Origin: Flavobacteriaceae bacterium
GTDB taxonomy: Bacteria; Bacteroidota; Bacteroidia; Flavobacteriales; Flavobacteriaceae
Direction of reading: 5' to 3'
Length of the DNA stretch: 64,000 bases
NCBI GenBank assembly: GCA_013215105.1
Contig: JABSPL010000193.1
Span: forward strand, 1 to 64,000
This document shows positions 37,221 through 40,716 of the stretch, in pieces (within the stretch, counting starts at the first letter, position 1; every line of letters begins with the position of its first letter). The translations under genes and the position numbers were made by a program. The notes beneath the pieces are model-generated. The model had not been told where the DNA came from. It saw only the letters and a list, made by a program, of their open reading frames with translations, and ran no database searches.

Positions 37221-38672
37221 TTAATCAATAATAAATTTAAACCCTAAAGAGATTATATAAGAATTAAAATCGATGTTCCGCTTATACATACTATAGTCTA
37301 AACTAATATTCTTGAGTCCTAAAGCTTTGAAAATATGTTTTTCAACAAAAATATCGGTGTATTTTAATCCTAAACCATATTGGCTAGAATTGAATTCTGA
37401 CAAGTCATAATCGGAAGTATAATAAAGGGAGGTAGATATATTTTTGTTATAAGCCGAAAAATAATCAGACTTAGTTTGATTGTAGTATCTATAAGAAGGG
37501 TATAGGGTCCATTTATCATTTAACTTTATAGGTAACTCTATACTTAGAGTGTTAGAAACAATACCCCAATCGTCAAAATAGTATCTGTAATAGGTTTTAA
37601 ATATCAAAAATTCATTGATATAATGATTATATCTAAACCCTATTGGTGTTTTTAATCGACTATCAGGTAGTCTCTCTACAGCATCGGCTAAGTGAAACAC
37701 ATCAACATTGCTAGGATTGGTGTAGTTGGGGATATTTGAGGGATTACCTATGTAAAAATCATCTTTATCTTCAAAATAAACTCTTTGCATAGGGCTAGAT
37801 AATAGTCCGTTTTGCATGATAATATCAGAAAATATAGAGAATTGTGAATTCTTACTAAGTATCTGAGAGAGACTCAGCGAAACAGAATATGTATTCCTGT
37901 TAGTATTTGTTATTTCATTGTATTGTGTAGCTACCCAAGTGGTATTACTGTTTTTGTCAGTTTCTAGTCCTTCACTGTTCAGTATATCTACATTAGCAAA
38001 AAAACTACTATTAAGACTACCTTCGGTCCTTCTGTATGTTTCTATTTCTGTCGGATAAATAGGTGTTACCTTGTCTAAGAAAAGACCTAAATTAATCCCT
38101 ATTTCAGTGTTTTTCTGATTAAATAATTTAGTAAAACCGGTATTGAAACCTATAGAAGTATAGTCATACTCATCAGAGATGCTAAAGCTAGCAGTATATA
38201 TCTCATTTCGATCATCTGACCAGTGGCTGTAACTTACATTGCAACTAAGCCAAGTGTCTTGTCCAGAGGCCCCTGATGAAGCAAGCCAAGGAGTACCTAT
38301 TACGGTTTTAGTCTCGGCAGAAGTAGATGTTGATGCTCCACTAGTGTTACTTGTGCTACTTGTAGAGTGTTTAAAAGGATTCAAATTACTAGACGAAGCA
38401 GACGTATATGCCGATACCGTAAAACCAATAGACAATATGTCATCGGCATTCATAGGTATCAAAATATCGATACTTCCAGCAATATCGGTTAATTCTTCTG
38501 TTCCAATACCTCCGTTTACTGCTGAATTCTTACCTTTTTGACTGTAAAAACTAGATAATACGTCTATTTCCACATTATCTAAAACTCTTCTTTTATATTC
38601 TTTGTTGTCTTTAGTCTGAGATATAGAAGCTACCGAAAATCCAAAAAACATATACAATATTAAATTCTTCAT
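37221..38672 (-). CDS. DUF3570 outer-membrane beta-barrel protein
   Basis: This 483-residue protein has a signal peptide (1-19) and a predicted barrel of alternating strands, ending in a C-terminal aromatic-rich strand (ISLGFKFIID). A Ser/Thr-rich linker at about 90-120 is typical of the DUF3570 family. It is the last gene of a minus-strand cluster coding for a haem-motif lipoprotein, thioredoxin, ApbE, DUF4266 and then this protein. It could be the outer-membrane part of that system. Function unknown. Confidence 0.85.
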   Translation of the reverse strand: MKNLILYMFFGFSVASISQTKDNKEYKRRVLDNVEIDVLSSFYSQKGKNSAVNGGIGTEELTDIAGSIDILIPMNADDILSIGFTVSAYTSASSSNLNPFKHSTSSTSNTSGASTSTSAETKTVIGTPWLASSGASGQDTWLSCNVSYSHWSDDRNEIYTASFSISDEYDYTSIGFNTGFTKLFNQKNTEIGINLGLFLDKVTPIYPTEIETYRRTEGSLNSSFFANVDILNSEGLETDKNSNTTWVATQYNEITNTNRNTYSVSLSLSQILSKNSQFSIFSDIIMQNGLLSSPMQRVYFEDKDDFYIGNPSNIPNYTNPSNVDVFHLADAVERLPDSRLKTPIGFRYNHYINEFLIFKTYYRYYFDDWGIVSNTLSIELPIKLNDKWTLYPSYRYYNQTKSDYFSAYNKNISTSLYYTSDYDLSEFNSSQYGLGLKYTDIFVEKHIFKALGLKNISLDYSMYKRNIDFNSYIISLGFKFIID

Positions 38673-38682
38673 AGTCTATAAT

Positions 38683-38892
38683 TTAGTTACAGCCACAGCC
38701 ACCTCCTGTTTTCCCTCCGTTTGCCCCCATGGCAGATTCTCTGTAAATATGAAAACTAGTTTCAAATTTCAAAGATTTTCTTTTTGTCAATGTCATATCA
38801 GGGTCATTTATGTTTATTTTCTCATATTCCTTCACCATAACACACGATGACATGCTTATAGCTATAGTAAGGAATGCTATTTTATTTTTCAT
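38683..38892 (-). CDS. DUF4266 small lipoprotein with Gly/Cys tail
   Basis: This 69-residue protein has a lipobox MSSCVMVKEYEK at Cys17, a DUF4266 body (KFETSFHIYRESAMGANGG) and the terminal motif GGGCGCN with two cysteines. The signal and tail leave only about 50 residues outside the membrane. Overlap with the end of apbE by 11 bases shows tight coupling. The conserved tail suggests a metal, flavin or modification site. No function is proven. Confidence 0.85.
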   Translation of the reverse strand: MKNKIAFLTIAISMSSCVMVKEYEKININDPDMTLTKRKSLKFETSFHIYRESAMGANGGKTGGGCGCN

Positions 38893-39862
38893 ATATGTTT
38901 ATGTTGTCAGAACTATGAATTTTGCCTTTATTATCTATTAGCAGACATTCTGTATTAGGTAGTTGGTTTATCCTATCCAGACCTGCTTCAATACCCATTA
39001 CAAAAACCGATGTTGCTAATGCATCTGCTAGTTCGGCTTTTTCGGCAAACACACTAACACTAACTATTCCTTCGGAAGGATACCCTGTCCTAGGGTCTAT
39101 TATATGAGAATATTTACGTCCCTCGAAACTAACAAACTTCTCATAATTTCCAGAAGTAACTACAGCTCCTTTTTTAAGAGATAAGGTGGCGAAATTCTTG
39201 TTTTTATTCATAGGGTTGATTATTGCAACCTTCCAATAATCGCCATTCAATTGCTTTCCCCAGGTGTTCATATCTCCCGAAGCGTTTACAATCCCCGATA
39301 TAACTCCTTTGCTTATCAATAATTGCTTAGCCATATCTGCAGCATAACCTTTACCTATCGACCCGAAACCTATTTTCATCCCTCTTGTAGGTAAGTAAAC
39401 GGTACTTTCCGACTTATCTAATATTATATTAGTATAACCAACTTTAGAAACCGATTTAGCAATAATTTCCTCAGAAGGTTTTTTTTTCATACTTCCATCA
39501 AATTTCCAAACTTTATCCATAGAAGCATAACTAATATCGAAAGCACCGTCTGTTAGTCTCGATAAAACAATGCTTCTCTCTATGAGTCTATAAAGTTCTT
39601 TACTTACTTTAACTGGTTTTATACCAGAGTTTCTGTTTATTTCAGATGTTTCAGAATTCACATCCCAAGAGGAAATAATTCTTTCTATTCTTTTTATTTC
39701 AAAAACAGCTAAATCTATGTATTTGTCAGCCTCAGAATAATCTTTGGCAACAACAGATATTTCGAAACCACAGCCCATAAGTATCATTTTTCGAGTAAAA
39801 AAACTCTGAGAATGTAAGACGTTAGTTAGTGTAAATACACATATGTATATGTATAGTTTCAT
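38882..39862 (-). CDS. apbE: FAD:protein FMN transferase
   Basis: This 326-residue ApbE-family enzyme has a signal peptide (1-18). Family motifs are FDISYASMDKVWKFDG, IGFGSIGKGYAADMAKQLL (FAD binding), GDMNTWGK, GAVVTSGNYEKF, HIIDPRTGYPSEG and LADALATSVFVMG (the Mg/FMN-transfer site). It attaches FMN to Ser/Thr in exported redox proteins. No obvious S/T-G-A-T acceptor was seen in its neighbours. It follows the thioredoxin gene by 3 bases. Confidence 0.93.
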   Translation of the reverse strand: MKLYIYICVFTLTNVLHSQSFFTRKMILMGCGFEISVVAKDYSEADKYIDLAVFEIKRIERIISSWDVNSETSEINRNSGIKPVKVSKELYRLIERSIVLSRLTDGAFDISYASMDKVWKFDGSMKKKPSEEIIAKSVSKVGYTNIILDKSESTVYLPTRGMKIGFGSIGKGYAADMAKQLLISKGVISGIVNASGDMNTWGKQLNGDYWKVAIINPMNKNKNFATLSLKKGAVVTSGNYEKFVSFEGRKYSHIIDPRTGYPSEGIVSVSVFAEKAELADALATSVFVMGIEAGLDRINQLPNTECLLIDNKGKIHSSDNINIYEK

Positions 39863-39865
39863 TTA

Positions 39866-40294
39866 TTAAAATGATTTTAAGATTTCTATATATTCACTAG
39901 GAGATACTTTGGAATAACCAGTAGTGCCTAATACCTTTTGGTTATAATCAAGGACTACGACTAGAGGGAAAAAACCTTTTTGATTATATTTCTCAGCTAA
40001 AGCATTGTTTTTGGCTTGTACGTCTTTAGTTAGTTTGTTTTTTCTTTTCCTAGGGAAATCTAATTTTAATAGAGTCCAATTGTCTTTTGAATGGTTTTTA
40101 AAAAGCTCAGAATTCCATATTTCTTTTTCTAATTTCATACAAGGAGCACACCAGTCTGAGCCTTGAAAAACCATTATAATATTAGTTTTTCTTTTTTTAG
40201 ACTCTTCTAAGGCTTTATCGAAATCGGTATGCCATTGTTGAGCATTAGAGAATATGCTTGTAGTTAGGAAAAGTAAAAAAATCACTTTATTCAT
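39866..40294 (-). CDS. Exported thioredoxin-like protein
   Basis: This 142-residue protein has a signal peptide (1-18, SNAQ) and a thioredoxin fold with the active site DWCAPCMKLEKEIW (CAPC). It would run dithiol-disulfide exchange in the periplasm. Neighbours with exposed cysteines, the DUF4266 tail and the CxxCH lipoprotein, are possible substrates. Second gene of the cluster. Confidence 0.88.
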   Translation of the reverse strand: MNKVIFLLFLTTSIFSNAQQWHTDFDKALEESKKRKTNIIMVFQGSDWCAPCMKLEKEIWNSELFKNHSKDNWTLLKLDFPRKRKNKLTKDVQAKNNALAEKYNQKGFFPLVVVLDYNQKVLGTTGYSKVSPSEYIEILKSF

Positions 40295-40344
40295 ATTATT
40301 TGTATTTGTATAGATTTTAAAATAGTAATCATCAATAATAAGGG

Positions 40345-40716
40345 TTATTCGAGGTACCCATCATCTTTCCATTTAGATATAAGTTCTCTATTTGATGTGG
40401 ATAATTTATTGTTTGGAGGCATGAAGTTAGTTTCGGCATTTATTCTTTCCAATAAATTTCCGTTCTCAATAGCATCTTTTAAATTAGAGTAATTGGATAA
40501 GTCTAAATTTGCTTTGGGACTGTTTCCGCTATGACACGATAAACAATTGTTTGATATTATAGACTTTATGGGAGAACTGTATTTGGTTTTTGTATCCTCT
40601 CCTTCTCCTTGATCATCTACTACTTCTTTAGGAGCCAGATCTTCATTGTTTTCTTTTTCACTACAAGCGAAGAAGAAAATAAATGTTATAAATAAAATTA
40701 TTTTGCAATTATTCAT
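40345..40716 (-). CDS. Lipoprotein with c-type haem motif
   Basis: This 123-residue lipoprotein has Cys18 in FFACSEKEN, an acidic linker at about 25-48 and a single CLSCH haem-binding motif (NNCLSCHSGNSPKANLDL). A Met in FMPPNNKL near residue 100 could be the axial ligand. It resembles the short cytochrome c domains called planctomycete-type. It is the first gene of the cluster and makes an electron-transfer role plausible. Confidence 0.8.
   Translation of the reverse strand: MNNCKIILFITFIFFFACSEKENNEDLAPKEVVDDQGEGEDTKTKYSSPIKSIISNNCLSCHSGNSPKANLDLSNYSNLKDAIENGNLLERINAETNFMPPNNKLSTSNRELISKWKDDGYLE

Follow-up and report, generated by a model that had tools for sequence, protein, structure and literature searches.

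A Bacteroidota copy of the four-gene DUF3570/DUF4266 flavinylation system, with two predicted flavins on an outer-membrane barrel and a heavy-metal efflux neighbourhood recurrent among relatives

The window, i.e. the whole 64,000-nucleotide stretch of DNA analysed here, comes from a genome assembled to 3.05 Mb in 224 contigs, and contains five open reading frames between positions 37221 and 40716, all on the minus strand and all coding for exported proteins (Table 1). Pfam searches confirmed the names under which the original prediction had listed them. A haem lipoprotein gene lies upstream and is separated by 50 bp from the gene for a thioredoxin-like protein (hereafter Trx), which is followed by those for ApbE, DUF4266 and DUF3570. 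The gaps among these last four range from -11 to 10 bp (3 bp between Trx and ApbE, an overlap of 11 bp between ApbE and DUF4266, and 10 bp between DUF4266 and DUF3570), bearing out the tight packing that had been claimed. DUF4266 is likewise the Cys-tailed lipoprotein that it was taken for, with a lipobox cysteine (Cys17) and an exact GGGCGCN end. The source genome has two ApbE genes, one of them in this operon, and the closest relatives of the window DUF3570 are found in Flavobacteriaceae (Aureibaculum, Lutibacter).

Table 1. Genes and sequence features of the locus (positions in the window)
Feature	Position	Strand	Remarks
Haem lipoprotein gene	40345..40716	-	PSCyt1 PF07635, 25.6 bits (cut-off 22)
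CLSCH haem motif of the haem lipoprotein	40531-40545	-	single motif, monohaem c-type
Exported thioredoxin-like protein (Trx)	39866..40294	-	Thioredoxin_7 PF13899, 45.3 bits; WCAPC, Cys49 and Cys52
Exported ApbE, FAD:protein FMN transferase	38882..39862	-	PF02424, 270 bits
DUF4266 small lipoprotein, mature form about 50 residues	38683..38892	-	PF14086, 69.9 bits
DUF4266 C-terminal GGGCGCN, proposed CxC redox or metal-thiolate site	38686..38706	-	
DUF3570, 16-strand outer-membrane beta barrel, two covalent FMN predicted	37221..38672	-	PF12094, 135 bits
DUF3570 flavin site 1, Y89-T-S-A-S93	38394..38408	-	
DUF3570 flavin site 2, S132-S-G-A-S136, then Asp139	38256..38279	-	

Among 80 loci of named genomes, picked by the closeness of their DUF3570 to that of the window, 78 keep the order Trx-ApbE-DUF4266-DUF3570, and the remaining two begin at a contig end. 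DUF3570 and DUF4266 are present in an identical set of genomes (17 of 60 related genomes), and with few exceptions the core begins with Trx. These four genes form a fixed operon. The co-occurrence of the five families, proposed as a check on the cluster, is thus far beyond chance for Trx, ApbE, DUF4266 and DUF3570 and fails for the haem lipoprotein. No relative of DUF3570 was found on viral contigs, and plasmid records yielded a single weak match to DUF4266, from Hymenobacter. In Flavobacterium cheniae (L091) two tandem DUF3570 genes occur within one operon.

The DUF3570/DUF4266/thioredoxin/ApbE gene set has already been described by Méheust et al. (eLife 2021; PMC8238504). Among their 285 DsbD-linked flavinylation clusters DUF3570 occurs in 227, DUF4266 in 221, a PF13899 thioredoxin in 183 and VIT1 in 25, and 316 further clusters combine ApbE, DUF3570, thioredoxin and DUF4266 without an adjacent DsbD (PMC8238504). 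The same authors pointed out the CxC tail of DUF4266, gave an acceptor consensus of the form [S/T]GA[S/T], and demonstrated that the DUF3570 of C. luteolum, the only one for which covalent FMN has been shown, is flavinylated by its own ApbE at two motifs, the modification being abolished only when both serines were changed (PMC8238504). The original prediction was aware of no experiment that defines what the DUF3570/DUF4266 pair does; in fact DUF3570 is a proven ApbE substrate and the cluster is in the literature (PMC8238504). A known function of the cluster had been named there as a refutation, and this applies in part: the gene set and its flavinylation have been known since 2021, which largely fills the supposed gap. 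In the literature collection searched, no later paper names DUF3570 or DUF4266, and two later papers on flavinylation do not deal with the system.

The window operon is accordingly one Bacteroidota example of this published flavinylation system of four genes. It shares with the published DUF3570 clusters an ApbE beside DUF3570, two acceptor serines, a PF13899 thioredoxin and a PF14086 DUF4266 with a C-terminal CxC, but differs from them in its first acceptor site, which is TSAS rather than [S/T]GA[S/T], and in the haem lipoprotein gene that adjoins it; in contrast to the DsbD-containing subset, its DsbD is encoded on another contig. Loci from other lineages (L143-L146) cluster the same families in the order DUF4266-DUF3570-ApbE-DsbD, but unlike the window lack a separate Trx gene and have DsbD adjacent. 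The chemistry is that of the ApbE substrates with FMN-binding (PF04205) and DUF2271 domains, in which ApbE attaches FMN to a serine or threonine as a phosphoester, though these are small soluble domains whereas DUF3570 is an outer-membrane barrel.

Acceptor motifs for the flavin, which the original prediction did not see near ApbE, are in fact present: the window DUF3570 carries two, YTSAS93 and SSGAS136. The search for conserved Ser/Thr that had been suggested for this family gave a clear answer: in an alignment of 96 sequences Ser93 and Ser136 are invariant in all, as are Tyr89, Ser91 and Ala92 of the first site, while Asp139 of the second is kept in 99%. Site 2 fits the [S/T]GA[S/T] consensus, and in site 1 a serine replaces the glycine, the motif having the form [ST]SAS, not SGAS, throughout the window lineage. 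From established knowledge of FMN-binding domains we take the last serine of each motif to be the FMN carrier. A further SGAS in the window protein (residues 111-114) was considered as site 1 and rejected, as it falls within a variable insertion and lacks conservation, whereas TSAS93 is conserved. DUF3570 of the window is very probably a doubly flavinylated outer-membrane barrel.

The AlphaFold2 model of the window DUF3570, built from 15 sequences, is a barrel with an N-terminal signal-like helix (pLDDT 72) and is weak in loop 2; hence L107, a relative in which this loop is short, was modelled from 43 sequences, giving a pLDDT of 90.3 and 16 strands, as counted by hand. In this model strand 3 ends with site 1 and strand 4 is immediately preceded by site 2, so that the two flavin serines bracket loop 2. 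Outer-membrane proteins follow the rule that their ends are periplasmic and their periplasmic turns short, and by this rule loop 2 faces outward. Across the family the inward turns have 2-15 residues, and the outward loops 2, 4 and 5 reach 71, 125 and 49 residues, respectively. Positions that are at least 95% identical amount to 27% in the outward loops versus 20% in the strands, and such frequent near-invariant loop residues are compatible with a conserved cap that holds the flavins. Thus, with the orientation taken from the general rule and the positions from a model, the flavin serines probably flank a single long cell-surface loop, which would put covalent flavins at the bacterial surface; an outward position would require ApbE to modify the protein ahead of barrel insertion. 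The PDB fold matches of DUF3570 are general outer-membrane barrels and give no functional hint, and neither DUF3570 nor the haem lipoprotein has a sequence relative among the solved structures. In one relative (L017) the outward loop 4 bears a long, almost pure Asp insertion that could bind cations.

Cys49, Pro51 and Cys52 of Trx are invariant in 79 sequences, and Trx resembles DsbH and the thioredoxin domains of DsbD; in DUF4266 all 96 sequences keep the lipobox Cys17 and the terminal CGCN. The source genome has a single DsbD, with a C-terminal thioredoxin domain, on contig C166, and DsbD adjoins the cluster in L027, L111 and L143-L146. We infer a route in which this DsbD would carry electrons across the inner membrane to the CAPC thioredoxin of the operon, from which they would pass to the CxC tail of DUF4266 and on to two FMN placed by ApbE on Ser93 and Ser136 of DUF3570. 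As both serines flank a long loop where the barrel opens outward, the flavins would then hand on electrons close to or at the surface of the cell. We regard this route as somewhat more likely than not, its order and its direction of flow being the presumed parts. If confirmed, it would constitute a haem-free, thiol-and-flavin electron route to the outer membrane. The original prediction of a complete extracytoplasmic redox pathway is sound insofar as the genes do make up a co-inherited redox module acting outside the cytoplasm, but it does not extend to completeness in five genes: the haem lipoprotein gene is not conserved with the others, and DsbD is encoded elsewhere in the genome.

To characterize the genomic context, all neighbouring ORFs of 95 loci were clustered (1.42 Mb scanned). 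In 18 of the 95 (19%) a CzcA/CusA heavy-metal efflux pump is encoded no more than about 9 kb away from the operon, whereas the density of such pumps in 60 related genomes (about 195 Mb), where a hand count gave roughly 100 members above the cut-off, predicts about 0.7; the 18 loci are not independent, many being from Flavobacterium or Maribacter, though they span several genera and two arrangements. All 19 scanned pump-like proteins match TIGR00914, and among them L109 and L117 have one distant RND relative each in addition to a true member. In the first arrangement, pump-adaptor-core, seen in Cyclobacterium, Maribacter and F08102, the pump genes are upstream (L050, L103, L105, L108, L109, L117, L155), with the adaptor 3-105 bp from Trx in six loci and a Rieske gene between pump-adaptor and core in L155. 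In the second, core-regulator-kinase-pump-adaptor, seen in Flavobacterium, pump and adaptor genes are downstream; such a position occurs in L073, L077, L081, L082, L087, L090, L091, L093 and L113. A metal-type two-component pair often accompanies the pump, its best models being cztR_silR_copR and cztS_silS_copS with scores below the curated cut-offs. The window copy has no metal gene beside it. The recurrent efflux genes and regulators point to metals as trigger or substrate of the system.

As to which metals, the closest solved relative of the pump is ZneA, and the consensus of the pump's fourth helix is DFGxxxDGA; together these suggest divalent metals such as Zn. Zn is a divalent metal that cells do not reduce, and the pump may for this reason mark metal stress rather than the substrate of the flavins. 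The words "efflux", "heavy metal", "copper" and "Rieske" are all absent from the main text of the 2021 paper (PMC8238504), and both the metal-efflux link and the probable outward placement of the flavin sites go beyond it. These two features make the end function of a known gene set testable.

Given the above, the chances seem to us about even that the system relays electrons from thiols to flavins at the outer membrane, with a metal ion as the likely acceptor. Such an acceptor is suggested by the repeated joining of the operon to CzcA/CusA and metal-type regulators, and sometimes to the iron transporter VIT1; taken by itself, the proposal that a metal ion is the end acceptor is plausible but tentative. 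It is more doubtful that DUF3570 acts as a metal oxidoreductase with two flavins at the cell surface, receives electrons from periplasmic thiols by way of the DUF4266 CxC, and forms one metal-handling unit with CzcA/CusA and metal-sensing regulators. The VIT1 genes lend themselves to another explanation, already proposed by the eLife authors for the VIT1-linked clusters (PMC8238504), namely that the surface flavins reduce ferric iron and ferrous iron is then taken up. VIT1 is indeed next to the cluster in L027, L034, L093 and L152, besides the 25 published cases, but it is rare in our set (3 of 95 loci), members of its family also remove or store iron, and efflux pumps are far commoner near the operon than uptake systems. 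We consider an assimilatory iron reductase unlikely. The resemblance of Trx to DsbH and DsbD, along with the dependence on DsbD reported for a part of the family (PMC8238504), could alternatively indicate repair of the envelope, with Trx and DUF4266 reducing oxidised outer-membrane proteins and the DUF3570 flavin serving as sensor or electron sink. This would explain neither the two covalent flavins on the barrel nor the link to metal pumps, and appears to us the least probable of the explanations weighed here.

A further alternative, closer to the original prediction, is a respiratory or extracellular electron chain made up of all five genes, with the haem lipoprotein feeding or draining the flavins. 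The haem gene is on the same strand as Trx and close upstream, and a scan of the interval between them detected no terminator-like site; it may be co-transcribed with the Trx operon. The slot that it occupies is empty of carriers in most relatives, but in other lineages a small exported Rieske [2Fe-2S] protein is encoded directly upstream of Trx in eight loci (L025, L031, L033, L073, L151-L153, L155) and a multihaem cytochrome in L149 and L150, some of these being among 20 wider loci (L143-L162) that were hand-picked from the matches and are not a random sample. The slot may hold exchangeable one-electron carriers. Against a five-gene chain, none of 90 close relatives has a CxxCH gene in this slot, and in none of 95 neighbourhoods does a relative of the haem lipoprotein adjoin the operon. 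The family is also about equally common in genomes with DUF3570 (10 of 17) and without it (24 of 43), showing no association by genome. The lipoprotein itself has one c-type CLSCH motif and a PSCyt1 match just over the cut-off; it is not part of the conserved system, and the five-gene chain is quite improbable.

The haem lipoprotein has two paralogues in the source genome, and the surroundings of one of them also speak against the five-gene chain: in this genome, as beside a relative in another, a YceI-like protein (named by eye from its sequence) and then a barrel-like protein follow. The paralogue loci at L139:2760-4912 and L140:4769-6867 combine the haem lipoprotein with YceI-like, small membrane-anchored and barrel-like proteins, and possibly represent a haem/YceI/barrel module. 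Elsewhere, downstream of the DUF3570 operon of L033 (L033:10596-14782), two adjacent genes encode proteins with 23 and 31 CxxCH motifs.
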